A DNA stretch of 64,000 nucleotides. Origin: Tribonema minus. Lineage: Eukaryota; Sar; Xanthophyceae; Tribonematales; Tribonemataceae. Below, piece by piece: positions 1,838-62,500 of this stretch. A program made the position numbers and the translations under genes. The notes under the pieces were generated by a model, which was given only the letters and a program-made list of their open reading frames with translations, had not been told where the DNA came from and ran no database searches. Position 1 is the first letter of the stretch. Each line of letters begins with the position of its first letter. The stretch spans positions 868,001-932,000 of the forward strand of contig JAFCMP010000390.1 in the NCBI GenBank assembly GCA_017506865.1, written 5' to 3'.

Positions 1838-4800
1838 CTACTCCTCCTCCGCCTCCTCCGCAGCTTCCTCCTTCTCCTCCTCCTCGTCGTTGCCGTTTTC
1901 CTCTGCCTTCTCGTCACCCTCCCCCGCTTCCTCCGCGTCCTCGCCCCCCTCCTCCTGACGATGGAAACGCGGGCAGGCCAGGTGTGTTCAGCGAGGTTGC
2001 TAGTGGAGTGCATGTAGCATTAAGTGTGCGTTGAAGCAATCCTCAGATGGTGACTCCGGCTTGTACAATGCAGTCAGTCTCGTCGTGTATGGCCTGCTGT
2101 GGCAGTGTCTTTGCCTATGTATTTATATTGAAAAAAATTAATGCTTGCATACACCTGCTTCAGAGTACTGCACATAAGTTTGAAGTTTGAGTACAATTCA
2201 AGAGTAGTGTGCTACAGTGATCTGACAGACTCAAGAAAGACAGGACTCTTCCAAGCAGCATCAGATCTGTGACAGCAGATGAAGGGTCACACCTCATGCT
2301 TGCTGACATGTGACCAGCAATTGCTTATTTATAAAAGTCTGTGCCGCTAAACATCGCCATTTCATGCAGCTAAACGCCGCCATAATGAAGGAAGATTACT
2401 GTGAGCAACCAAAACTGTGAAAAAGGTCTTAAAAGCCACTGACACTCCGCAGGCTTCACGCATGTGACTAGGCGCAAGCGTGCAGATATCGCATGCTGTC
2501 GTCGTGGAGACAGTCAACTTCAAGTTTGTGTTTGTGGTCAGCCTTAAACAGTTTTTACATGGAAATGCACAATGGCGGTACAGGGTCAAGGAAGCCCCAC
2601 ATGGCAAGTGGAAGGTTGAGAACAACCAGAGCTGCAGCCTCCACCAAATTGGCGCCGGTTTGAATAGTTCCAACTGCTAAGCCCAAGTGACTGTGGCGAA
2701 CGCGCAAGTTTAGTCACAAGAGTTACTGTTTACTCACAAGGTTTCTCAAGTCTTGACTTCTGAACCCTTGTTCATGTATCATATCATGGGCCTCAATAAT
2801 GATTGTAGAAACAAGTAAGCCTTGATAGCAGTTGCGCCAAGGCGTGTCTAGTTGCGTGTGACGCCAAACCTCAACTTCAACTGCACCAAGAGGATTTCAC
2901 ACGATGGAACCCCTGAGAGCCTTGCAAGGCAAACATGCAGATCATGTGCTACACAAGTAGGATGGCGTACCTCATCTGCCTCTGCCTTAGCCTCAGCCCC
3001 CTCCTCCTCCTCCTCCTCCTCTTCCTTCTCTGCCTCCTCCTCGCCCTTCTTCGCCTTCTTGGCCTTCTTCGCCGCAGGCTTCTTGGCGGCCTTCTCCGGC
3101 TGTGACACAAATGCAAATGCGCTGATATCAGAGCACTGTCTGCTAAATTCGCAGGCGTGCATGGCGCGCGTGGTGCTATAGGTGTGTGCAGACTTGACTG
3201 TCTAGCAGACGAGATTTGAGTGAACCGACTTGGTTGCTGAGCCAAGCTGAGCAATGAATCAATTTTATTTGTTGATTCAAACTGTTGTCCCTTCCATAAC
3301 TGTGAAACTGTGTCCGTTGCAAAGAGTCAGCATCCTGTATTGGCAATCAGGGAAGCTGTGGCATTCTCGAACGTGAGACAATCAGAGTACGGCAAGACTT
3401 CAAATAGCGTGCTCTGCACGCTGCTGTCAGCTGGATATTTGCAACAAGAATTGCTTTCGTACGTAAAAGACCAACCGCACATATGGAGGCCCACACAAGC
3501 TGCAACTGATGATGAAACTCAGACCGTCAACAGTAAAGGGCTGCTCTGTCGGATCACGCACACACCTTTTCCGTCTTGCCGGACTTCTTGGCAGCTTTCG
3601 CGGCCTCCTTCTCAGCATCCTTCTTCTTCTTGGCAGCGGCTGCCCGCGCCGGCCCGCCGCTGGCCTCAAACTCATCCTGCCCCTTCTTGGTGAACTTGTC
3701 CTTCTCGGACTGGCTCGCCTTGTTCCACAGCTCAGCGATCTTCGACATGATCTCCTTGTTCTGCAGATCTGCAGGATTGCGCGCGCGGCGTGACGGGCGC
3801 TGGCGTTACAAGCTGTGTGCAATGCGATGGACTGCATACCAGTGCTCATGATACTACATACCACATGAGTGAGCGGTTGCTGTGAAGTGGTTTTGATGCA
3901 CATGCAACAAGCGATTGTGCTTTTGTGAAGTGGTTTTGATGCACATGCAACAAGCGATTGTGCTTTTAAAGGTGATGACCTTGCGCAGATGAAAGCAGCG
4001 CCACCCACACAGCTCACACTCACCAGCTAAATCTTACGAAAGCTGAATCAGCACTCAGATTGGGCCCTAACAGGTGAATGCAAGAATTTCATCAGGAAGC
4101 AAAGAAACAAGACAATGGTGTGGGAGCGATGCTAGTAAATTGGATCCAGTGCCGCTTGTGCTCATCAGTTATGATGAGCTAGGCATCGTGTTAAATCCGG
4201 TGCCGCTTGTGCTCATCAGTTATGATGAGCTAGGCATCGTTTTGAAGCCACATGAGGCGTTTTGGGAACATTTGGACAGTCTAGGTGAAAGCTTTCAGAA
4301 CAAAGAGTGACCCGGAATATGCGGTTTAAAATATTGCCAGGGTAGCAACAGCTTCAACATTGAGCCTCTCTAAAAGCACAGCTGCAGCGAATAGAGGTTG
4401 TACCAGGTAAAGCACTCCTGTATCGTAGCGTTCAATGGAGTCATGCATTGTATATTGTGCTAGTGCTGCTGCCAAATGATGAACGGACAGTGGCATCAAT
4501 TCTAATCAGGTTTGACCAGGTTACGAGGATATCATAGAGACTGCACAAAAGCGCACGTACCTGGGTTCTTCTTCACCACATCAGCGCGCTTGGCTTTTGA
4601 AAACATGATGTAGCCTGAGTTGGGTCTGGTGGGCCCCTCCTTCGCCGCTGCCTTGGACTTCTTTGCCGGCTTGTCTCCGCTGTCTGACGCCTTGCGCTTC
4701 TGCACAAAGGCAGCGCCGTAATGGAGAGATGCTATCATTAACGCATTTGACGTGTTTGATCGGACAAAGTGGGCTTTGCAGTCACACGTGTGAAATTACT

Positions 4801-7951: not shown

Positions 7952-10900
7952 CTAGAGATAGGACCCGTCTGTGCTGGTGGTGGCGGGCCGGCGCAGCTGC
8001 GCCGCGGGCGTCAGCCGCGGCGGCCGCGTGTCCTTGGGCGCGCACAGGCGCAGCGAGGCCTCCCACAGCGCGCGCTGCGCCGCCGTGTCGCGCGCGTCCG
8101 GCGACGGCGTCACCTCCAGGAGCTTGTTCCAGTACGTGCCGCCCTCGACGTTGGGGCCTGCAGCGGCGGTGGCAGAGGCGGCGGCCGTGAGGGGAGTGAG
8201 TAGGGGGAATGGCATCGGTGCGATGGCACGCAACGTGGCGGAGCGAGCTGGCGCAGTGAGCAGAGGGGATGTGCTCGTGCAGGCGTAGCTCACAAGCATC
8301 ACATTGCGGAGTGCGGCATGTATGAGCACTGCGACCGTCAGTTGCGGCGAGCAGCGCTAAGCAGGGCTTGTGTGCAAGTGGCGTCGGCCAGTCTGAGTTG
8401 CAGTAGCACAACTCAGCCCAGTCCATGCATGCCCAGATACGGCTGCATCAAATCGAGCATTGACTTCTTGATTGCTGCCCCGTGTAGCAACCAGCGGTCA
8501 CAACATCAGCGGATGTGGCGGTCGCAAAGTCACTTGCTGACCAACTGCTGCAACAAATGGACAAGATCTGCACACAACTCTAACTTTCAAGACAACGCCA
8601 ATCATTGGATTGTCACTGAAGTGTCTTCAATGATGTGTACTTGACCATGCGTGAAGACAACGCTAAATATGGCAGCACCAATCTGTACGTGTGTGTCCGT
8701 CTGCCTCCTGATATTTACATCACCCCCATGCCTGGCAGCAGGGTTGCGGTCCATGGCTACGCACGGCGTGATGCTGACACACTATGCAAGTCCTTGACAT
8801 ACACAGCGGTCAGCATGTCACACAGGCAACCAATGAGAGTGGTACGTACCAAGGACAGCTGCAGCTAAAGATTGGCCGGCCTGGTCCACCGGCGTGAGTA
8901 TTGGCGACAGCAGCGCATACAAGACGCGCAGCAGCTTGCTGTGTCTTGTTATCGCTGTCCGGCACAACCCTGACGCAGCATGGAGAGAGGGGGGGGCAGC
9001 ATTGGCATCGAAAAACATCACAGACACAATGATGGCCTCTAAAGACTGAAAGTATCTGAAAGTATCAGGAGATGGATGCAATGTGGTGCAGCGCATGACG
9101 AAGTGACAGGAGACATGTTGAGCGTCAGCTGCACCTGGTCTTGCATGTTGACACCTTGGCATTGTACGTAAAGCGGAGGGGACGTGGCACTTACCAATGT
9201 TGTTACAATCCAACATTCTGCAGCTGCTATGTGAATACACTCAACGACACTCACACGGCCACCGCTGCAGTGGTACTATGTACCTCTAGAACTTGGTAGG
9301 CATAGGTAATCTTTGTCCAGCACCTCTTCTACTGCAAGCACTTGACCAAACAGAGCGCATGACTGAAGCGCAAGGGGAAAAAAAGCAGCACTGCTGCTGC
9401 TGCTGCTGTAATGCTTGAGTCGGATGCCATTCTCACCAGGTCTGACCGCGACGGCGGTGATGCCGAGCGTGCCCTGTCGCCGGTGCAGCTCCGACACAAA
9501 GAGTATGTTGTACAGCTTGGTGTTGGCATACATCTGCCACGGCCCGCAGGTCTTGTCGTTGTACAGGTGGTCCGGCTCAAAGCTCCCCCAGCGGTGCGTG
9601 CCGCTTGACACGACCACCACGCGCGATGACCTGCCCAGCTCTGCCAGGTGCAGCAGCAATAAGGGCAACGTGCAACGAATGAATGAATAAGTGAGTGAAT
9701 GGGTGAGTGAGTGAGTGAGCGCAGCAGAGTTTACTGCTCTGCGGCGCTGTGGTTCTCGGTTGCGTGTGTGAGCAAAAGCATTAGCGCATTCACGGCAGAG
9801 TATAGAACGCGAAGGACTGCCCGGAATCCGCAGACCGTGGTTGCATGCGTTGCAAGGCAGCTCTGATGCAGTGCTGAACGACACTTATTTCTACAAGACA
9901 CTGTTAGTAAACATAGGTGCAGCTGAGCTGTGCATGCGCATTCACGCACCTTTTGCCGCGGCCTTCATGTTGGGTAGCAGCAGGTTCGTCAGCAGGAACG
10001 GCGCCAGGTGGTTGACCTGTATCGTCAGGTCGTGGCCGTCTTTGGTGAGCTGCCGCGGCGCGCCCATTACCCCCGCGTTGTGCACGATGCTGCTGACGGG
10101 CCTGTCGCCGATGGCCTGCTCGGCGAAGGTCCTGACGGAGGCAAAGTCGGCCAGGTCCAGCTTCTGCGGAGAGCGGCCCGGCGCGCAGCAATTGGTGTTG
10201 ACGTGCTGTGTAATCTGTCATAGTGAAGGCGTAGGTCATGCTAAGCAGGTGCGACTGATGGCACCAAAGGATGTGACGTCCCCCCCATGGGAGTTGACGT
10301 TGAGCAAAACGTCTGCTCGCCGCCAACATGCACTGTGCGCTCACGAAGTTGTCTAAGTGGTGCTGCACAGGATTGCCTGCGCATGGAGCGCATTTTCTTA
10401 TAGCCACTGAAGTCTACTCCACAGCTCAGGAACAGGATTGGCAGTGGCGGCAGCAGCTGTATGTATGGCTGCTGCTGTGCATGTACTGACAGACAGAGGT
10501 GCTTAGAGAGTCAGCCCTTCACTTACCCATTGTGTTTGACAGCTGCAGATGCCCCACCTGGCGAGCATTCAACCGCATTGAGATATTGCTGACAACGATG
10601 CATTGGCAATAAAATCAGGTCATCTAAGCAGCTCAACTGTGGTGGTCTCTACATTCTGACGCAAATACTTTGATGCATGTTGGGAACACTGATGGCACAT
10701 TGTGGCTTCATCAGCCAGGCTGCTGTCCTGCTGCCAAGTGAGGTTTGCCTCGCAATCATGACTGTTGATAATAAATAGCAGCGGTCGTAGTTTGCAGAAG
10801 TTTACTAGAAGCACTGCTTGCACGAATCCCTGTGTGCAACCAGCACCTTCTTTTCTGACATGAACGTGCTGGCTTCGAGCACAGCCGTTCTTGTGCGATA

Positions 10901-11509
10901 ATGCTTGAAATATGGTTACCGACCAGCCTGCCGCATGTGAAAACCGTCCACACAGCAATGTTGCTGCCATGATACAATCTGACCTTTTGCATGGGCTTAC
11001 CGCCACAGCGAAAACTTGGATCGATGAAGCGAATTGATAATGACCTAGGTCTGCGTTACGACATGTATTGAAAGCAGGGAACAACAATGCCCTGCGTCAC
11101 GTGCTTCGACGTTCTTCATCGTGTTACCTGGCACTCAAGGCTCGCACCAGGATGTACCTCCAAGATCTCCTCTACAACAGCAGCTCCAGCCTTCACATCC
11201 CGGCATGCCAGTATCACGTGCGTCTTTGTCGCCGCAAGCGTCTTCACGCATTCGCGTCCCAGGCCAGAGTTGGCTCCTGTAAGAATGCAGAGGGGCAGAT
11301 TGCCTAGCACCTTAAGTACCGCAGGTGTGGAAAGCCCCTCGCATGCCGTGCGCGCCAGCAGCAGCGCCAGCAAGCAGAGCACGAGCCGCACCTGTAACAA
11401 TGCAGATTGGCAGATTGCCTAGCACTTTAGGTACCGCAGATGTGGAAAGCCCCTCGCATGCCGTGCGCGCCAGCAGCAGCGCCAGCGGCAAGCAGAGCAC
11501 GAGCCGCAT
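7952..11509 (-). CDS. Short-chain dehydrogenase/reductase with signal peptide
   Basis: Exons are 11509-11392, 11276-11128, 10163-9950, 9640-9437, 8969-8850 and 8157-7952 (TAG), giving 336 residues. Residues 1-18 are a hydrophobic leader (MRLVLCLPLALLLARTAC), so the enzyme probably enters the secretory pathway or is ER-anchored. The Rossmann motif TGANSGLG is at 39-46, NAG at 118-120, the catalytic Ser in VVVVSSG near 173, and YANTK gives Tyr198 and Lys202. RPG near 227-229 follows the active site as in classical SDRs. The overall pattern resembles the retinol dehydrogenase/WWOX-like group, which uses NAD(P)(H); the substrate cannot be told from sequence. The start is an ATG (11507-11509) directly before the leader. 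Intron 1 (11277-11391) is a diverged tandem copy of exon 1; see the repeat entry. Intron 2 (10164-11127) is long and shows no nested gene. Confidence 0.85.
11277..11509 (-). repeat. Tandem duplication of SDR exon 1; the inner copy serves as intron 1
   Basis: Bases 11392-11509 (exon 1, 118 nt) and 11277-11391 (115 nt) align over their full length with about seven substitutions and one 3-nt gap, roughly 94% identity. The second copy begins GTGCGGCTCG where exon 1 begins ATGCGGCTCG, and both end TTACAG. The second copy therefore has a 5' GT and a 3' AG exactly at the duplication borders. Removing it restores the Rossmann motif TGANSGLG, with the Gly codon split as G|GA. Keeping it shifts the frame and meets a stop. 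Confidence 0.92.
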
Positions 11510-11654
11510 CCGCTGACTCTCCTTTCGGCGGCGCGAACTTCAACGCATCCTCAACCGTTGAAGTTTGCCTGAGAGACGTGTTGGGCTGGCGCGGCGCTGT
11601 GTGGAGCCAGAAGCGCGTTGATATGGAGGGCTAGCCGCCTCAGGTTAAGCGTCG
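11510..11654. promoter_or_regulatory. Divergent promoter region, SDR / MFS transporter
   Basis: Only 145 bp separate the start codon of the SDR gene (-) from that of the MFS gene (+). Both 5' UTRs and core promoters must lie in or overlap this interval. I see no obvious TATA box. Confidence 0.5.
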
Positions 11655-14600
11655 ATGACGCTGACACTTCAGGACGTTGGTGGAGGACGCGATGCCGTCT
11701 TCGACCCCGCGAAATCCGTGTCGAAGTACACGATCAGCAGTGAGAAGGCGATTGTGCTGCTGAATGCCATCGTGAGTACGCCACGTCGTACTGCTTTCGA
11801 GCGAGATCAACATCATACAGATCGATGATCCATGTCGATGTTGGCTTCAATCAGAACTGGCCTACTACTTGAGACTCAATTTGCACAAGCACTACAGATG
11901 CTGCAGTATATCACTCGGTGTGATTTTTGCAAACAACACATGGCCGAAATTAATTCGAGTTATGATATCGTAGTACGAAGGCACCGCAGTAATGCGTGTA
12001 CGCTGTCTAACGGGCGAACGTTCTTCGAGCACCAGCAAGATGCAGCCTCCATGGCATCAGCCTTTCCTATCTCAAAGTCCGACAATTAATGCAGAATGAT
12101 CAGCACACACAACGCCCGACTTTGTTGCCTAATCAGACAGCAGCCTGCGCTGGCCACGCCGCTGTCACATATGCACGGTTTTAGGGAAGTCATTGGCTCT
12201 TGTTACATCCCTGTTGTGAGCAACCAAGTGTACTGCCGTTTGCGGTTCTCGTAACGCTGCGCCGCAGTTCTCGTCTTCATGAAAAGCTGTGGTCATGAAA
12301 AGCAACAGCTCAGCACTCATGAGCTCCATGAATTTTCATCAGCGAACGACTCACTTCCACTGTGTAGCCGTCTCACCGCTACACGCGCTGCCACCGCTCG
12401 TATTCACTGCGTCTCCATGCACCACTCAGTCTGACTACTCGTCACTGACGCCACGCGCTCCACGCCTACACCACAGAATGCACGGCATCCCTGCCTCACG
12501 CTCTCTCTCTCTGCTGCTATCCACGTGCCCCCCGCCGCGCGCGTCGCCAGGCCGCCTTCTGCGTCAACACGCTCATCTCCGCGGTGAGCCCGTTCTTCCC
12601 GCAGTACGCCGTCATCTCCCTCGGCGCGAGCGGCGAGCTCGTCGGCCTCTGCCTCGCGGCGTTCCCGCTCGCCTCCATGATGACGGGGTCGCTCGCGGGC
12701 TGGGCGTGCTCGCGCCTTGGCCGCGGCGCCGTCGCCATGGCCGGCGCTCTCGCGCTCGCGGCCGGCACGCTCGCGTTCGGGCTGAGCGGCACCATGCCCC
12801 TGTGCATGGCGGCGCGCGCGCTGCAGGGCGCGGGCGCGGCGGCGATCAACATCTCCACCACGGCGCTCATGATGTCCGTCATGCAGGCCGACTTCAAGAG
12901 CGGCCTCGCCATACAGCAGATGTTCGTGGGCCTAGGTGAGGGCGGGCGGCACGGCGTGCGGTGCGTCGTGTGCTGGACTCCAGCGTGGCGCTCATTTGCA
13001 GACCGCGCAGCCTTGCCATCCCTGTGCCACATTTGTGGTCCGGTCACGGCTGCGCTGATCCCCTCAGGCCTGCACCAAAGAGCGGTGAAATGCGGCTTTC
13101 ATGTTTCAACGCTGTGCCTGCCGCCCCTCAAAATTTGGACTAGAAGCTCTGGCATGACGTGCAGCGCCACTCATGCACGCACCCTTTCGCGTCCCCCCCC
13201 CCCCCCCCCCCCCACCCCCTCTCGGCGTGCAGGCTACATCCTTGGCCCGAGCCTCGGCGGCGGCGTGTACGAGCTCGGGGGCTTCGAGGTCACTTTCCTG
13301 GTGCTCGCCTGCCTGCCGCTCACGCTGGCGCTCGTCATGCCGACGCTGCTCAGGGCCGCGGGCCTGCCGCTGGGCCACCGCAATCCCCCCTCCACGGTCC
13401 CCACGGCGCCCGCCTCTCCGGCGCAGGGGGACGCAGAGGCGTCGGGCCTCGAAGACGCAACGTGTCCCCCTACTGCTGCTGAGGGCAAGGCGGCAACGCC
13501 GCGGCCGTCATGGCGCGGCGCGCTGCTGCTGGTGCTGCGCAACGGCGGCGCGCTCGCGTGCTGCAGCTGCGCGCTGCTGTTCAGCGCGGCGTTCGGCTTC
13601 CTGGACTCGACGTTCGAGGACCACCTTGAGCAGTCGCTGGGCACGACGCCGTTCACGACGGGGCTCACGTGAGTTTGCGCTTGTGAACGGGGCTCACGTG
13701 AGTCCGCGCATGCCTGCCTGCCTGCCTGCACGTCTCCCGCTTGATGTCTGTGAGCCGGTGGCACCGCCTGCAACTGGCCAGGAATGCAGCCGACGCACGC
13801 TGCAACGGTGATGCGAGAACCACGCGTCACCGCTGCAGCGGACAAATGCTGTAGTTGCCACATGCACGCGGCGCCACTGATCTCGCCGGGGTTGCAGGGA
13901 CCGGTCATGCTGATGAGGGTCGAGGACTCTCGTCCCCCTCTCATCCCCCCCCCGCCCCCCCCCGCAACCGCGCCGCAGGTACTCCCTCCCGGCGGTCACG
14001 TACTCGCTCGGCTCGCTGCTGACGGTGCCCGTCGTCGACCGCGTCGGCTTCCAGCGCTGCATCATGGCCGGCCTCGTCGTCATGGCCGCGGCCATGTGGC
14101 TCATCGGGCCGCTGCCGCTGCTCGGCTTCGTCTTCTTCGACCGCGCCGTGACGTGGGTCATCTGGATCGCGGCGCTGCTCGCGCTCGGCCTCGGCATCGC
14201 GCTGCTGCTCGTGCCGTCGCTGCCGGCGATGCAGGCGTCGGTTGGTCTGCGGCGCGGCGCCGCGGCAGCGGCAGGGGCGGCGGAGGAGGACGAGGCGATC
14301 TCCGACGCGACGTCCACCGTGTACACGGGATTCATGAATGCAGGTATGTGTTGGGGATTTGTGTTCGCGTCATGGGGTCTGGTGTCGGCAACGAGCTGTG
14401 CATGTGCGCTTTCTTAGGCGCCGTTGTGGGTGTGATCGACGCACTGCTGTCGGTGACTTGAACTTGGCTGTACTGTACGTGACGCGCTCGTTCGTGTGAT
14501 ACACGTCGTGCCGGTCAACCACGCTGGTACACGCAGCCCTGTGTAGCTTTGCGGCAGCGTCATCTGCACTTGAAACTGGCTAGAGCCGACCATGACGTGC

Positions 14601-20500: not shown

Positions 20501-23240
20501 TCACGGCTGAATGATGGGCCTCTGCATCTCTCGACAGTTTGCAAGCGAGTGTGCGTAGGCAGGTCGGCAGGAGAGGGCTGCCGTTGGGTGCATCAGCAGA
20601 TATGTTCCGGATGCAAGCGTGCCCATTGGCGATGCACGTCAATGCATCACCACAGCGCCCGGCGGCGCACACGGCACAAGTGCAGGTCACCGCAGATGAC
20701 ACGCACGCGGTCAACTTGCAATATCAGGCATGCCAACTGTTGTCATGGCAGCTGCACACCTTGCAGCAGTCACATACTTCCACAAAATGACCGCAATAGC
20801 CCTCCCACGGCAGTAACTTCTCACGCCCCCCCTCCGCCCCTCATAACCCCCCACCCCTCACAGGCGCAGCAGGAGTTCTCGCGCGCCATGGCGGAGAAGG
20901 ACGAGGACCACGCCACGCGCGTCCTCGAGCTGCAGGAGCGCCACAACCGCGCGCTGCAGCGCCACCTCCAGTCCGGCCCGCCCTCTGTCACCGCGGCGCT
21001 GTCGCCGCAGCGCCCCGCCTCCGCCTTCGGCTCTGCCACCGCGGCAGCAGCGGCAGCGCCCACGGAGCTCCTCGCGCAGGTGCGGCGCCTGTCGGCGGAG
21101 CTGGAGGCGCAGCGCGCGGCGGCGGCGGCAGCGCGCAGCACGGCGGCGGCGGAGCGCGCGCGCGACGTGGCGGCGGCGGCCGCGGCGTCCGCCGGGGAGG
21201 CCGCCGAGAGCCGGCGGCGCGCGCAGGCGCTGGAGGACCGGTCCACGGCGCTGGCGTCGCAGGTGCGGAGGATGCTGGGGGGTTAGGGTGAGGGTTAGGG
21301 TTAGAGTTAGGTTTAGTGGAGCAGAGGCACGCGGCTGCAGCAGTTGTGGGAGGGGGCGGCGGCAATTGAGCTGGAAGGGGGGGGGGAGGGCAGCTTGCGG
21401 CCGTCGTGAGCAGACAGCTCACGGGGCGCTTGGCGCAGCTGCGGCGCCACGCGTCACTGCAAGCTCTGCGCACAAGGCAGATGCGCAGTTGGCGCAGCGG
21501 GCGTTGCGGCACGATGATGTCACTCACCCAAACGCAGCTGCCGCTGCGGCGATGGCGCCAGCGACACCGAGCGAGAGCGACACAGCAGCGCTGATCACTG
21601 CCCCCCCGCCCCCCCCCCCTTTGTGCTCACCGCCGCCGCCATTGCCGCCGCGCGACTGTCCGCAGATGTCGGAGGCGGCGCGCCAGATCAACCTGCTCAA
21701 CGTGCGGCTGGAGGAGACGGAGCGGCGCCGCGGCGCTGCGGAGGCGGACGCAGAGGCCGCGCGGCGCGAGGCGGGCGTGCTGCGGCAGGCGGCGGCGCAG
21801 GTGGCCAGCATGGAGGGGCAGGGGGGGGACGCGGGGGGGGAAGGGGGGGGGGGGCTTGCCGCCACGACGGAGGCGAAGCTGCGCACGCTGCAGAATAAGG
21901 TACTCCCACAATGAGACAAGAAATTTGAAGTAGGCGCTGACTACAGTGGCGGGGGGTTGCTGTATTGCTGAGCACTGGGGATAGCAGGAGGCACAGTATA
22001 GGAGGGTTTGCAGGTCACTGGCGTTGCGCTGCAGACGCAGTGCCGGTGGTCTCCGTGCTTGTCGCTTGTAGTACTTGCATATCACAACGTTAGGCGGTGC
22101 AACCATGCGTTCAGCTTTGTTGAAACGTTGTGGACGGTAACGTGTGCCTGTGCAGCGATGATGAGCGGTGAGACGGGTGACCCTCCCTTGAACTCATGTT
22201 GAACTCATGTTGGTATGCTCTCTTCTCAGCACAAAGAATGCACAGCCATGACTAGATTTTATGTGGGTATACATAGATCTGATACAATAAGGGGACACGT
22301 CCAAGGTCGTCCTTGCAAGATGCAGCAGACTGTACATGGCACGTAACGCACCAGTGCCGCAGATCCTGCTGCAGTGCTTTGACAGTGTTGCACATCATGT
22401 ACTCCTGAAAAGTAGTGGTAATTCGGTGAGGAGAGAAGCTTGCAAGACGACACCACTGCACAGCGCAGAGGCAAGCTTGGGGGCGATGCACTCCATGTGA
22501 TGGTCAGCAAAGCATTATCATGGACATTGGTACCAAACCAGAGCATGTCAGTCGAGGATCGCTGAGTCACCGCAACTACACACCGCGACTGAAGCAGTGT
22601 TCCAGATACGTCAAACACAAGAAACAGTGGTGATATAATCAAAGTGCTTCTCGCAGCTACTTCACCTTGTTGTGAGATAGTAGTCGGCTGCACCACGTGG
22701 CAAACTTGCCGCAGCAGCTCTGACCCTTCGAACCACTGCTGCCGACCAAATGAAAACAGACCATGCTCATTCATGCAGTGCTCTGTTTCAACAGTTTCAG
22801 ACCAAGCTCTTGTTATCTGCGCCATGTGGCAACGTTGTCACGGCGGCGCTGCGCACTAGCACCACCAAAGACGTGTGCGTCCCGCCTGCGCACTCAGCAA
22901 CCTCGCCGTCACCCCTCCCTCCTCATCACCACACACGCCCCTTGCACCCCCTCGCATCGACCAAGCCCCAGCCCCCCCCCGCCCGCCCGCACCAACTGCA
23001 ACCCCCAGGTCGAGTACCTCAAGGCGCAGCTGGCGTCCGAGCAGACGCTGCGCGGGGAGATGGAGGCGGCGCTGGCGGCGGCGCGCGCACGCGCGGAGGC
23101 GGAGCGTTGCGACGCGCGCGCCGCCGCGGACGCGCTCGACGAGAGCCGCCGCGCCGCCGTCGCCGCGCTGCAGGCGCGCGCGCAGAGCCAGCTCGACGCG
23201 CAGGCGGGCGAGGCCTTCGCGCTGCAGGGGAAGGTGCGCG

Positions 23241-47696: not shown

Positions 47697-49315
47697 TCAC
47701 TTCTTGTTGGCGTCGTCTCGAGACGTCTGGTACTCCTTTACGAGGCGCTCCTGGACGTCGCGAGTGACGGGCAGGTGCTCCTTGTACTCCATGGCAAACT
47801 CGCCCTTGCCCTGGGTGCTGCTGCGGAGGTCCGTGCTGCAAGGCGGGCACGCAGGGGGGTCGAGGGGGGGGGGGGTGGTGAGCACGAGAAGCATGTCATC
47901 AGCACCTGCTGCATGGGGCTCAAACCTGCTCTGGTGCCCCAGGCCATAAGCGCGCCAGCACACCCGCTCGCTGCTGGTGGTGCGACGGCGCACAAAAGCG
48001 CCAGCAGCAGCACAGGTCGTGCCATGTTGGCCCGCGCACACAGAGATGCGCGCACATGCGAGCCGCCGCTCAACGCAGCCGTCAGCGCAGCGAGCGGCGC
48101 GCCTGCGCACCACCATCAAGCACGCTCCACGCAGTCCATGCGCAGATGCCAGCGCAAGAGACGACCCAGAAGTGCCGCGCTGCTCCGTGCTTTGATGACG
48201 ACACAACCGCTCAGGCGTTCAGGCGGTGCAGGCGTTCAGGCGGTGCCACGGCGCAAGGGCTACCGTGCCGCAAGCGTGGCCTCGCCGCACCACTGATTCG
48301 GGCGCCACAACAACTATGTGCAGACGCCAACGGGTCAGACCTGCAGTTCCGCGCTGCGCGGCGTTCCGTCGCGTGCGCAACGCGCCTCACACGCTGGCGG
48401 CGCATCGCGCAAGCCGCACTTGCAATCCATTCACGCAGTCAGCGACCAGCGCCTCCCTCACCTGTAGCCGAACATCTGCGACAGCGGCACGTCCGCGCGG
48501 ACGACGGTGCTGGAGCCGTCGTCGTTCATGCCGGCGCTCTGTATGAGGCCCATGCGCTTGTTGAGGCCGCTCACGATGGTGCCCTGGAACTCGGCGGGCG
48601 CCGTCACCTCGAGCGCCATGATGGGCTCCAGGACCGCGGGGCCGGCATCCTGGGGGCAGCGCGCAAGAGCGTACCAAGCGCGAGCGTGCAAATGGGTTGG
48701 TGTGCTTGTGCGGATGGCAATAAATAGCGTACCAAAGCGCGAGTGTACAAATAGGTTGGTGTGGTGTGAGGATGGCAATAAATGTCGTATCAAGCACAAG
48801 CATACAAGTAGATGGGTGTGTGTGTTTGAGGATGGCAATAGAAGAAGTTGCAGACGGTCGATGGGCTGGGCATCCTGAGCAACGCGCAAGCAAGAATTAG
48901 GCAGCGAACGCGCAAGCAAGGATTACTGCAGGGAGCTCTGGCTGGGCGCCCGAGGCAGCGGGTGCCACTTCACAGCCCACCATGCGCTGTAGGTTTGGCT
49001 CGCTAGCCCTGCGCATTTGATGGTTCGCCTAGCTGCGGTAAGCAGGCGGCTGTGGTATCTATACAAGCACTCCGATCGCTTCATCTTTGCAGCACAGGTC
49101 TGCTTGACCAGCACCCGTGCGCTGCGCGGAGCCTGGCGCCATGGCTCGCTTTCTGCGTCTGTGGTGGGCGCTGCGCTTAGAACACGTGCGCCTATTCTGC
49201 CGATGCAATACCTGTGACCTTCGCATGGACCATCCATAAACAAGCAGAGCGTGCGCGCAGATATCAGCACGCGCGCTGCCTCACCTTCATGGCGCCGCGC
49301 AGCGCCGCGGCGGCG

Positions 49316-52300: not shown

Positions 52301-55300
52301 ATGCGCACCTGTTCTTGTACGCGCTGCCCATGAAGACGGGGACAAACTTCTGCGCGATGGTTTGTCGCCGGATGGCGCGCTTCAGCAGGTCCTTGGGTAC
52401 CTGTAAGGGGGGAGGGGGGGGGGGGAAGGGGTAACGAAAGCAGCAGCGCGAGGCCACAGTTGCGAGTGAGTGAGTTGCAAGCGAGACGATGGCGGCAGTA
52501 CTCTGCACACGGGCATCGTGACAAGAAAGTGGGCCGGGATCAGGACGCAACAGGTGGCGCCTGCCATGGGAGGGGCTGCTCATAGGCACTACGCGACACC
52601 ACACACATGACGCAAGGATTGCCTGTGCATTCTGTGCTCTTGCTGTAGGTACATAAGCCAACAAGCAGGGGCCTGGGCTGGGCCTGTGTAACCTGGTCCA
52701 TCTGTCTTGTGGGAACGATGCTAAGGCTGGCCAGGCAGGCATACTTCTTTTTGAAGTACATGGTCATCATCTCAAGTGCCCTTATCTATGAAAACGCAGT
52801 TAATGCATCGTCCGCGACGAAATCACACTGTGTTGTGACATGCCTCGCCACAGCGGCGGCTCCCACTTGAAGATGCAGGCGCTGTTGCTGTCAGTAGACT
52901 GACAAGGCGTGGTCAACGAGACATTCACTTCACGATGATGGCATCAAGCCCAGGGGTCTGGAAAAAGATTACACGGGCGTTCTCAGAAGGGCTACACATC
53001 GACTTTGAATTTGGGTGATCAATGTGAATCTGGCAGGACAATTCACGCTCCCTGCTGTCTTGTGCGTCTAGGTCCTAAGCCTCCTGCTGTCATCATGCAA
53101 CTACTACGGCAGTCTTCAGCCACAGCATGATGGCCGATATTTGAGTGCACGCATGTCAGCTGTGAAGGCATATTACTTGTTGATTCCGCTGCCAGGCATC
53201 TACACCCTGCTTGTTGAAGTTGAAGAAGGACCACTGGATGCCACTAGCCAGCGACGGTTGTATCAGCTCACCATTTTTACATGTTGGTGCGTGTTGTCAG
53301 CTGCAATCATGACTGAATTGTGGCGGATGATGAACTCGGACACCTGCTCACCGAAAGTGACACTCCTTGCACTTTTCATACCTCTGGCTCCACTGTACAG
53401 AGCAGCCGAGAGCCAGAAAACGGCCCTGACTGTGCTCTGAAAGTCATATTTATCATTTGAGTCAGCCGCCACTGAAAGGCGTGGCTCACACTCAGCTCTG
53501 GGAGGCAATGCCCGCTAAAGCTGAGCACACAAAATGCCAGTGATACATTTTGGGACAAATGAGGCTTGTACAAGCCAGATGCGCGAAGCACATCGGCTGA
53601 GAGTGTTGTGCTCTGCACGCACAATGGCGCAACGTAGGTCATCACCTATGCCAAATGGCTGCTTCCACGGACTTACACAGAAACTTCAACATGATATTGA
53701 AGTGACTTGCAGAATTCATCACATGGAGCCTGTTCGCAATAATCTGCACCAGCGCCTGCAGCAGCCATGCTGGCCGCTGAGGCTGATGCCACGCCTTCCT
53801 GCATTCAAAGTCTACAGCTCAAAACCAGCATGTGGAGAGCTGTGGCAGCGAATTGCCAAGAAGCGTTGGTGCAGCAAATTGCCAAGAAGAGTTGGTTCAT
53901 AGCCCCACCGAAAACTGACCACTGTACTTCAAGCACCAAACGCATGCCACTGCTTATAGACTAGGTTTATGATACGTCAGAGAGAATATGTACTAGCATG
54001 CAGCTGGCCATAGCTGAGAGGGTGCTCCGCCCTGGATCAACGACTCTCCTCAGACTTCAGCAGCCCCCTACATCGACTACTACTCCGTGGCGCGGCAACA
54101 TGGGCAGCTTGCAGCAAACCGAAGACTTCGTTGCGTGGCATGGGTCCCGGAAGTGCCCTGACTGCCATCAGATGGATATGGGTGTGGCGCGCCTTGACCT
54201 GCAAGGTCCACTCTCACAGGCCAACCACACCCTTACCTACTGGTCCCACGTAACACAATGCCTTCATCGCACCACGCCTGTGCACATTCCCTGACATCGA
54301 TTGCGGACGTGATCATCTGCGCTGCTGACCTAACCCTAACCCTAACCCTAACCCTAACCCTAACCACGTGCACCGCACTCGCAACGCAATGATGACGCGC
54401 GTGGGGTATCACATGTCGTCCACAACAACCTGACGCACGTCATCAGGTACATCCGACTCCTGACCAGACTACTCACCGCAACCGTAACCCTAATCCAGCC
54501 GCCACATACTTACCAAAATGACCTACATGTGTACGGATGGCGTCGCCTCAACCAACCTCAACCATCTGCCCCGTTTGCAGTATGCCACACCAATTGATGT
54601 CAGCAATGACGCATCACGGTGTCTACATATGTATACATATATGTAAGTGTGTTGTATGACTCAGTATGACTCAGTATATTGCATGACTCACATCTTCTTC
54701 GCAAATGAACAGCTCCGCCACCTCCTCATCCACGTCCGCCACCCGCTCAACCAGCTCCTGTCTTGCCGCCGCCGCCGCTGCCTTGAGGTCCTCTGGTACA
54801 GGCGCCTCCTCCACCATCTCCCCCTTCTCCCCCCTGCTCGCAGAAACATTTTAGAGAAGGCTTGGTCTTGTCAGGCAGGCGATTTCTCTAAAAAGCAGAG
54901 ATGACATTGGAACCCTCTGTGTCGGTGCGGTGATGTTCAAACATCTCAGCTGATGATGCAGACACAGCTTGCCACAGTTTGCTTTGCTTGCACCTGATGT
55001 AGCCCTAACCTATTTCTAACCCTAACCCTAACCCTCGTTGATGATGCAGCTCTGTACGCACGCCACCAGTGTAAGACAAGAAAGCGCCGCAGAGTGATGG
55101 AGTGCAGAAGTGCAGTCGTGTCACCATTGTGAGACAAACAAGCGCTGCAGAGTGAAATAGAACTTCAAACCTGAAGTAGTAGGCCACCCCCCTGATGACG
55201 TCCACCACGCCATCGTGCGCCGCCTCAAGACCGATGGGCACCTGCAGACCACACGGCATCGACAAAGCGTGTCAGGCACAAACAAAATTTCGAAGTCGAT

Positions 55301-59531: not shown

Positions 59532-62500
59532 ATGAGCATCCAGGGAGGGAACTACAGGCTAAAACGGATTGAATTTGACGGCGCTCGGCGGCCTGTGCTA
59601 TGTCAGAACGAGGGCGGGCCGTGCCCGCTTCTTGCTATCCTCAACGTGCTACTTCTGCGGGGCTCTGTACAGCTGCATCCCGACTACAGCGAAGTAGGGT
59701 TGCATCAGCTGGTGCAGCTGCTGGCAGGTCACTTGTTGGAGCTGTCCGCCAGGCACAGCGAGCCCGCTCAGGCGGTGAATTTCCAGCAGCAGGTCAGCAC
59801 TAGCCTGCTTTAATCACCGCTGCAATTTTTTGTGCATGTTATGTTCTTGGTAAGCTGTGGTGCAGCAGCTGCTTTCCTGGCGTCATCAATGCTGTTTTCG
59901 GTTCAAATGTTGCTGCTGGTGCTTGTTTCTCACATGATGAAGCCACGCTTCAGCAGGGTACATGCCAATCCGAGTTCGCGCTTCCGGATTCATTTCTACG
60001 AATTTGCCCCCTCATCACCACCATCATCGTCTGATTTTGCTGCAACAGCTGCATGGCGTCATGGAGTTACTACCCAGGCTTCAGTACGGCCTGGATGTCA
60101 ATGTCAAGTTTCTGGATCCCCAGGGCTTCGAGTTCACCAAGGAGCTGTCCACCTTTGACCTCACCGAGGTCACCCTGTTTCACGGCTGGCTCATAGACCC
60201 GCAGGACGCGCACATGATGGAGGCGGTAGGTTCCCTTAGCTACAACCAACTCGTTGAAATTCTAGTGGAGTACAGAGCAGCGTTGCATGATCTGGAGACA
60301 GATCCACACAAGGCGCCGCTGGCGTCTGTCGCAGTTGAAGTTGCTGCCGCACCAGCTCCCGCTGCAGACGCCGTGCAGAGCGGCACTGCTGCCGCCAGCA
60401 CCGAAGCAGCTTCAGCTTTTGTGCCTGCAGAGCCTCCGCCATCGGAGAGCAGCAGCTCTGCTCAGCCAGTGCCGCAGCTGCCCGCAGTTGAGCCAGCAGA
60501 CGCGGAGCAGCCGACGGGAGCAGGCGCTATGGACACCTCCGCTGACGACGCCGCGCAGTCGCCGCCACGCTCAGAGGCCGTCGAAGCCGCTGAGGCGTTG
60601 ATCGCGGATGTGGTGGCGGCTGCCACAGGCGCGCGCGCGGGCGCCGCCGCTGCGGGCGACACCGCAGCAGACGCTGCAGCAGGCAGCGCGCCGGCGGAAG
60701 CAGCAGCGGAGCCCCCCTCCGCTCCAGTCGGCGCAGCCGCAGACACTCTGCTTGGCGTGCCCGCCGTCGCTCTCACGGCGGCCGTCGGCGACCGTGACGC
60801 GGCGCAGGCGGGGGAGCCGCCGGAAGGGGCAGCAGCGATGACGGATGAATCGGCAGATGCGGACACCACAGCAGCTGCTGGTGCGGAGAGGGTGTTGATG
60901 GAGGTGGAGGATGTGGCGGCCGCAGCAGCAGCGGCGCCACTGGCTGCGGCGGCGGCGGCGGTGCGCGGTGAGGTCGCGGAGCGGCAAGAGCGGGCGCGCG
61001 TGGAGCGGCTGGAGCAGCTGCTGAGCAGGGGCGCCGCCATCGATCACTTTCTGGCGGACACGGCGACGCAATTAACGTGGGTGCCCATAACCATGGCCAT
61101 CGGCAATGATTTTATCACTGATCACAATTCAAATGAGATTTGTGAGGCAACTGGCTAAGTACAGCACTGTGTACATAAGGAGTTGAAGCTTCCTAGGTAG
61201 TGGGGTCGCGCTACAGGGCATCAGATCACACCTGGTGCAGTCGTCAATGCCACAGTTGAAGTCGAGCACAACGGTGCGCGTTTTCAACACCAACAGAACG
61301 TATGCGGAGGCCATGGCTATCAGCGCGTTGGTGATGATGTGCAAAGTTGTGCTGTGGCAGTGCGCTGTCCATCGGCGCTGTTGAAGTTGAGTTGAGCACA
61401 AGATGGGGCCAAATGACTTTGCAAAACCATGCAGCCCTCTCTCAGTCATCACTCAAGAGGGCTGACATCTGGGACTGCCACTCCTACGCCTACGCTCTGT
61501 AGTGCAAGACACAGTAATCTTGGCAGAGAATTCGTAGCAGCAGGCTCAAAAGATGTACAACAGGCTTGGGTTTCCAGCACCTCTTCACCAGACAAGCAGG
61601 AAAATGATTTTTCCTGAGATGGTGAAGAATTGAATGTATGTGCCAGATATCTGTGCCAGGAGTATTGACCCCCACAGAAGCTACCACAGGATGCCCTTGT
61701 GGCTTCAAAAGGCTGTTGTTGTGGCACGGTGATGTTACCAGCGCATTGATGTTTTGAACTTCGTCATGTTGAACTTGCACCTGCGGACTCCTGTCTTGGC
61801 AAGGCATGCAGAGAAGGAGACGGCTACCTGACTGGATAGGCATCTACGAATCAAATCTGCCTACGTTTGCCTACCACCCTCGACCCTGGCGGGGCATGGG
61901 TAGGCTCCGCAATGCAGTGCTTTCTTTATGTCCTTCAAATACGCCATGACGCCAGATACACAGAAGGCAGCAGACAACCAGGAGTGCAGGAGTTCAATGT
62001 ACTGGGTTGTTGCGAGACGGGTTTACGCAGATTCACTCACACACACCCTGCCGCTGTTACAAACGTGAGGAGACACAGAGAAGGCCGGTTCCGACCTTGC
62101 ACAGCTCATGCATACTTCGCACACCACCAACCAAGGGGCTGCCTCAGATGCTGGGCACTGTGCTTTATTCTGACTCTGTGGCCGTAACCGCCACCTGCGC
62201 CCACGATACATACCCCTGCAGGTACCACGGCCTGGCACGGCTGCACGCGGAGGTGCCGGAGGGCTCCCTGTGCGTCTTCTTCCGCAACAACCACTTCAGC
62301 ACCATGCACAAGCACCACGGCAAGTTGTACCTGCTGGTGACGGACTACGGCTACGCAAATCAGCCAACGGCCGTGTGGGAGAAGCTGGACGCCATCGACG
62401 GTGAGCGCTGCTGCGTGCTCAGTCTTCGAGGGACTTGACTGTGTGCGAGAAGATACTGTGCAGGCTGCCTGGTTACGGGGCAGAGACTTGAGGCGGGCTC

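Follow-up and report, generated by a model that had tools for sequence, protein, structure and literature searches.

A short-chain dehydrogenase/reductase (SDR) gene of Tribonema minus carries a second copy of its first coding exon directly behind the original. It lies in a 64,000-nucleotide stretch of contig JAFCMP010000390.1 (positions 868,001 to 932,000; hereafter the window, to which our coordinates refer unless the contig is named). The locus raises the question of whether the copy serves as an intron and, if it does, how duplicated coding sequence came to possess splice sites.

Anatomy of the duplication and of its host gene

On the minus strand, positions 11391-11277 (copy 2, 115 nt) are a head-to-tail copy of positions 11509-11392 (copy 1, 118 nt). 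The two match in 108 of 115 aligned columns (93.9%), with 7 mismatches and a single 3-nt gap, and the TRF score of the array (399) is the top one among the 67 rows reported for the window. The original prediction had described a 115-nt intron, about 94% identical to the 118-nt exon 1, whose borders coincide with those of the duplication; both our alignment and TRF agree with this description. The alignment likewise places a GT right after TTACAG and a second TTACAG, ending in AG, at the 3' end of the copy, as had been proposed. When positions 11150-11520 were searched as DNA against the entire assembly (158.2 Mb, 554 contigs), one locus was found among the best candidates scored, so that the sequence gives no sign of a dispersed repeat. 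An introner or transposon origin was rejected on the same count, since such an element should be present in many copies and one locus was found in 158 Mb.

The SDR gene lies on the minus strand and was modelled with six exons of 118, 149, 214, 204, 120 and 206 nt and introns of 115, 964, 309, 467 and 692 nt, the consensus splice sites being picked by eye. Translation, alignment and the frame shared with exons 2-6 identify copy 1 as coding exon 1 (11392..11509), which opens with ATG, encodes an N-terminus that by eye resembles a signal peptide and continues through the first Rossmann strand to ACA-G. According to translation and the gene model, the first two bases of exon 2 (11128..11276) are GA, which complete the interrupted glycine codon G|GA in TGANSGLG. 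The gene model then gives exon 3 (9950..10163), exon 4 (9437..9640), exon 5 (8850..8969) and exon 6 (7952..8157), the last with the stop codon TAG. Once copy 2 is spliced out, the predicted product has 336 aa without interruption. As expected for an SDR host gene, it matches Pfam PF00106 adh_short with 80.8 bits (cut-off 26.6); its best solved-structure match, obtained with a slightly mis-joined 229-aa version as query, is 3rd5 (E 6.3e-28).

The divergent neighbour of the SDR gene (12452-13669, plus strand) is a fragment of a major facilitator superfamily transporter (PF07690, 69.5 bits), and a MINDY-type deubiquitinase domain (PF04424, 99.6 bits) occupies 59944-61155 on the plus strand of the window. 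The genome holds at least 92 matches to the chlorophyll-binding family PF00504; for the one light-harvesting protein compared, the nearest solved structures were fucoxanthin chlorophyll a/c proteins, as would be likely for an alga of the red lineage.

Exon 1 ends, and exon 2 begins, inside the codon for the cofactor-motif glycine (ACA G|GA GCC AAC, T-G-A-N). Joined directly, copy 1 and exon 2 translate as MRLVLC...CIVTGANSGLG, while the succession of copy 1, copy 2 and exon 2 shifts the frame and then meets a stop. Translation thus agrees with the earlier claim that removing copy 2 restores TGANSGLG in frame and that retaining it causes a frameshift and a stop. Copy 2 followed by exon 2 is open in the same frame, yet it begins with GTG and has no Met inside, so that, if it is unspliced, no ordinary start would reach the Rossmann fold. 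Exact removal of copy 2 leaves the protein unchanged, that is, the predicted intact SDR. Because an intact gene (six exons, 336 aa, adh_short) requires that copy 2 be taken out, we infer that splicing occurs. On the alignment and the gene model, copy 2 (11277..11391, minus strand; GTGCGG...TTACAG, GC 0.63) is most likely a genuine new intron, here called putative intron 1, and its sequence is a tandem copy of the neighbouring exon.

Splice-site quality and the rank of the duplication

Splice statistics were drawn from a small gene finder, self-trained on 264 kb of the same contig, whose 374 predicted introns form a noisy reference. Over successive rounds, the gene finder shifted towards GC-rich exons (115 genes in the first round, 67 in the last), and it was used for splice-site frequencies only, with 101 strictly selected introns (the strict set) and a textbook matrix as checks. 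On the minus strand, the new 5' splice site CAG|GTGCGG (11386..11391), astride the duplication junction, stands at the 57th percentile of the model-predicted donors, and the new 3' splice site CCCTCTGCATTCTTACAG|G (11277..11294) at the 56th percentile of the acceptors, the matching end of copy 1 reaching the 31st. Both sites are therefore typical of U2-type GT-AG introns, relative to a reference that is itself predicted. The commonest predicted donors are GTGAG (74/374), GTGTG (29/374) and GTGCG (28/374), GTGCGG itself occurs in 7/374 and CAG is found in 76% of the predicted acceptors. Intron 3 of the same SDR gene, which follows exon 3, uses the donor GTGCGT, close to the new GTGCGG. In the duplicated region, 13 GT..AG pairs were found that keep the frame and avoid a stop; the exact-copy pair, which removes precisely copy 2, has the highest score (8.22; next 7.41). 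In predicted coding sequence, such scores are attained by 14.9% of 4,374 GT and 21.8% of 5,949 AG.

We then ranked the duplication among all units of 60-200 nt in exon 1, exon 2 and the 60 nt upstream (22,277 units); an exact GT..AG intron of any kind results from 1,473 of them. Including the unit that occurred, 6 units score at least as high with the 371-intron model (the predicted introns minus the three of the SDR gene), 4 with the strict set and 3 with the textbook matrix, a fraction of 1.3e-4 to 2.7e-4 that is to be read knowing that the feature had been picked by a reader searching for such borders. With units of 40-220 nt, the corresponding counts are 6, 4 and 4 of 28,597. This rank is explained if splicing made the duplication tolerable; random duplication would not account for it.

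Good introns made by duplication are not generally rare. When 40,000 duplications of 118 nt were placed at random in predicted coding sequence, 2,887 attained a score of 7.1, 2,876 through an internal AGGT and 11 through the junction. In a smaller control at a score of 8.2, with 4,000 duplications for each length, the proportions are 1.3% (60 nt), 2.2% (118 nt) and 4.1% (200 nt). The rank is thus extreme for SDR exon 1 and not for exons at large; good duplication introns are rare in this one, whose copy 1 state has no AGGT.

These results bear on three other readings of the locus. The strongest of them, though an unlikely one, is that the duplication disabled the gene, copy 2 being un- or barely spliced, the allele broken or weak, and GT and AG present by chance. 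Despite about 5% divergence between the copies, however, the five downstream exons are all open in one frame; borders this good arise in just 3-6 of the 22,277 units, and the acceptor of copy 2 outscores the end of copy 1 (4.41 vs 3.31). In favour of a disabled gene, a search of copy 2 by eye gave no convincing branch point, and the gene finder, when run on the SDR locus, did not call the intron, its path taking a donor GTACCT within copy 1 and skipping exon 2.

It is very improbable that copy 2 is instead the working coding segment, with a hidden upstream ATG exon splicing to the TTACAG of copy 1 and copy 1 itself removed or bypassed. Such an arrangement requires an extra hypothetical exon, whereas copy 1 already gives an ATG and the same frame. 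It can draw on the open frame of copy 2 into exon 2 and on the end of copy 1, which at the 31st percentile could serve as an acceptor, but the better adh_short fit belongs to copy 1 and the better acceptor to copy 2. Less probable still is an assembly artefact in which two alleles, or an error, were placed head to tail. The 7 mismatches and the gap make an assembly error unlikely, and differences at 7/115 sites plus 3 nt are much for alleles of a coding exon. Moreover, the sequence was found at one assembly locus, and a splice rank within the top 3-6 of 22,277 would be unexpected for an artefact.

Origin of the borders and later changes

The original prediction attributed the donor to a change in the first base of the copy, from ATG to GTG, and set the case within the textbook theory of AGGT duplication. 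The GTG at the start of copy 2 is indeed there, while the mutation is not needed. If the unit is shifted by one base (TGCGG...TTACAGG), duplication predicts ...ATTGTTACAGGTGCGGCTCG..., which is the observed junction base for base with zero mutations; a unit starting at ATG would instead yield ...TTACAGATGCGG... at the junction. An A-to-G point mutation as the source of the donor, although possible, was set aside as unnecessary, since the shifted unit gives GTG directly.

The textbook theory does not fit either. In the copy 1 state, AGGT is absent from exon 1 and from its border with exon 2, which closes the textbook duplication route; across the two exons together the motif occurs once, at offset 235, a position that belongs to exon 2 and lies beyond the duplicated unit. 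If copy 1 is ancestral, the locus falls outside the strict Rogers model, in which the AGGT of the ancestral segment supplies both sites. Copy 2 has an AGGT at offset 79 (AAGT in copy 1), away from the intron borders, and had this been the ancestral sequence, duplication of a textbook AGGT unit could have occurred. The GT..AG pair matching this AGGT gives an in-frame product and a score of 5.40, fifth of the 13 pairs, against 8.22 for the exact-copy pair.

We therefore consider it most likely that the donor CAG|GTGCGG arose where the two copies meet, without point mutation, a route that is rare a priori (11 against 2,876 internal cases among the 40,000 random duplications). The ancestor would have had an intronless 5' coding region, with exon 1 fused directly to exon 2. 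Tandem duplication would have affected a unit that begins at the second base of the ATG (TGCGG...) and ends with the G directly behind the ACA of the T-G-A-N-S-G motif (...TTACAGG). The copy junction TTACAGG|TGCGG would then create the donor, while the pre-existing ...TTACAG|GA, now closing copy 2, would act as acceptor. Since the donor consists of the first G of exon 2 and the TG of the start codon, the intron would, on the junction reading, have been spliceable at birth. The spliceosome would excise copy 2 exactly and leave the protein unchanged, and copy 2 would then have drifted as an intron to its divergence of about 5%. Three purines near its 3' end would have become pyrimidines, bringing the acceptor to about the median strength of the genome's predicted introns. 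We regard it as somewhat probable that the junction, by setting the initial G of exon 2 before the T(G) of the ATG, made an exon copy without AGGT spliceable in one step, and that selection on the pyrimidine tract followed.

With the junction base left out, the copies differ at 6/114 sites (Jukes-Cantor 0.055) and by the 3-nt gap. Counted from the intron end, three of the 6 differences are at -7, -16 and -17, each a purine in copy 1 and a pyrimidine in copy 2; the adjacent changes at -16 and -17 may represent one event. Between -17 and -4, copy 2 has 11/14 pyrimidines and copy 1 has 8/14. With the three pyrimidines, the acceptor ranks at the 56th instead of the 31st percentile among the 374 introns, and at the 55th instead of the 17th among the strict 101. 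The GC content of copy 2, 0.63, is exon-like, while that of the four other SDR introns is 0.50-0.56.

That copy 1 represents the older state is supported by its Pfam adh_short score (80.8 bits, vs 78.0 for the copy 2 version) and weakly by homologues; PF13561, among the four families listed, scores the two versions equally. The direction of change was examined with 37 prokaryotic and 4 paralogous loci, 40 of which align over the site. Since 35 of these 40 carry ICIVTGAN, one of our own search patterns, they were excluded from the count. In the 5 remaining homologues, 3 of which are paralogues from the same genome, TGA is preceded by V in 4, by I in 1 and by L in none, and these few sequences point weakly to a change from purine to pyrimidine. 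A pattern search of viral contigs matched 5 stretches, none of which is a relative.

The nearest SDR paralogue found in the genome is 49% identical over 34-105, and in two paralogues (L006 and L010) the exon seems by eye to begin 16 nt upstream of the equivalent position. With identities of at most 49%, and two exon starts apparently displaced by 16 nt, the paralogues are uninformative on the ancestral state. Introns thus occur nearby, and an old intron might have been overwritten or shortened and exon 1 sequence copied in later, or an intron copied to become exon 1, but this is barely credible, given that the L006/L010 position differs from the border of copy 2, that exon 1 explains the entire intron with no remainder and that copy 2 encodes the first SDR strand in frame, which indicates that copy 2 derives from coding sequence and not vice versa. 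Exonization, with the intron first and the exon as its copy, was rejected because copy 2 encodes in-frame SDR sequence.

The best explanation, in which we place considerable confidence, is thus the whole account: a tandem duplicate of exon 1, a donor made at the junction, splicing and later drift. The central proposal, a tandem exon duplicate that serves as an intron, is upheld by the anatomy, the frame, the splice-site quality and the rank test, with two details of its birth revised. The phrase "in the act", used for this birth, is too strong for copies that have diverged by about 5%.

Local repeats, published parallels and significance

Sister cases were sought in the window and a further 200 kb of its contig, together 264 kb or about 0.17% of the genome, in which TRF gave 29 rows with a period of at least 35 and at least 1.7 copies. 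According to the gene-finder labels of these 29 rows, and to the sequence of three arrays other than that of the SDR gene, an exon/intron copy pair occurs only in the SDR array. Two of the three arrays viewed (contig positions ~745,145-745,341 and ~758,423-758,635) look by eye as if they span the 3' end of an intron and the start of the next exon and merely lengthen the intron. The former (window -122,855 to -122,659) is a 108-nt tandem duplication with 84% matches in TRF; it covers the 3' end of a predicted intron and about 20 nt of exon, so that CAG|CTGGAGGAGTACCGAGG occurs twice, as two competing acceptors. The latter (window -109,577 to -109,365) is a 102-nt repeat whose later copies contain CACAG|GTGCGG, and a further copy seems to enter the start of a predicted exon.

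Other tandem duplications in the window lie at 3881-3967 (43 nt x2, 100%), 4144-4240 (51 nt x1.9) and 48668-48840 (58 nt x2.9); these are AT-richer (GC 0.41-0.49) and labelled non-coding by the gene finder. A 777-nt satellite of 4.7 copies, 98% alike and with inner 67-nt and 346-nt repeats, occupies contig positions ~839,239-842,910 (window -28,761 to -25,090). Local tandem duplication may be frequent in this region. The window also contains two interstitial telomere-like arrays of the TTAGGG type, with about 6 units each, at 21280-21316 and 54329-54365, about 72 kb and about 39 kb from the nearer contig end.

Of 374 real pairs of an intron and its flanking exon, 8 (left) and 16 (right) had 14-mers in common, vs 8 and 9 of 1,864 mismatched pairs; at least 5 shared 14-mers were found in 7 and 10 real vs 2 and 3 mismatched pairs. 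Among the 13 introns listed with sharing, 10 lie in the one 777-nt satellite, one is the SDR locus, which is mis-modelled, and one is the 745-kb duplication. We do not count this sharing as evidence of a genome-wide pattern. The thirteenth, a predicted 643-nt intron at contig positions ~718,938-719,580 (window -149,062 to -148,420), has seven 14-mers in common with its left exon.

Tandem duplication is an accepted mechanism of intron gain; for it, a 2012 review (PMC3443670) counts 188 unambiguous events, of which many are imprecise and draw on latent sites, as well as a demonstration in vivo. In vertebrate ATP2A1 (Hellsten et al. 2011, as outlined in PMC4974935), as in the SDR gene, an exonic segment is in tandem, the GT and AG of the copies bound the intron and the protein is unchanged. 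That segment carries AGGT, so both sites pre-exist, whereas copy 1 of the SDR gene has none: its donor AG|GT exists only across the junction, and its acceptor side reads CAG|GA.

The nearest published relative that we found is intron 2 of potato RdRp (Ma, Lan and Niu 2016, PMC4974935), which is also recent, with a readable source (ten differences between the copies) and a non-textbook origin of its splice signals. The potato unit is described there as crossing an old intron-exon border, from which it inherited an acceptor, a pyrimidine tract and a putative branch site, and as using a cryptic donor; by contrast, the SDR unit is wholly coding and no older intron is involved. The potato case is backed by RNA-seq and outgroups, whereas the SDR intron is predicted from genome sequence.

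In Drosophila (Lehmann et al. 2010, PMC2891723), coding sequence with a proto-splice site is likewise duplicated and the intervening sequence becomes an intron. There, 5/31 novel intron positions are credited to duplication from proto-splice sites AG/GY, whereas the SDR gene still shows its duplicate. Introners (Gozashti et al. 2022, PMC9860276) also place new introns in genes, but they copy into many genes genome-wide, unlike the SDR intron, whose sequence is found at one locus.

Among the listed titles and abstract openings of the open-licence literature, we found no description of a junction-made donor or of such cases in algae, and we do not claim that none exists. Tandem duplication is not mentioned in PMC12124190, and in PMC3488318 the term occurs in the reference list only. 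Relative to these published cases, the SDR intron belongs to the broad tandem-duplication class and falls outside its strict AGGT form; its donor origin seems uncommon.

Many introns regarded as recent have no recognised source: PMC4974935 cites one source for 21 new introns in Daphnia and one for 7 in a Drosophila pair. The SDR intron has its source in the exon next to it; its birth can be retraced as a single event, and each later change can be set against the corresponding base of copy 1. This birth appears to be fairly recent, the source being still legible in the sequence. The SDR intron is a testable example of how coding sequence may be tuned into an intron, with a stronger pyrimidine tract and a GC content that is still exon-like. 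For research on intron origin, it offers a clean, traceable case rather than a new principle.
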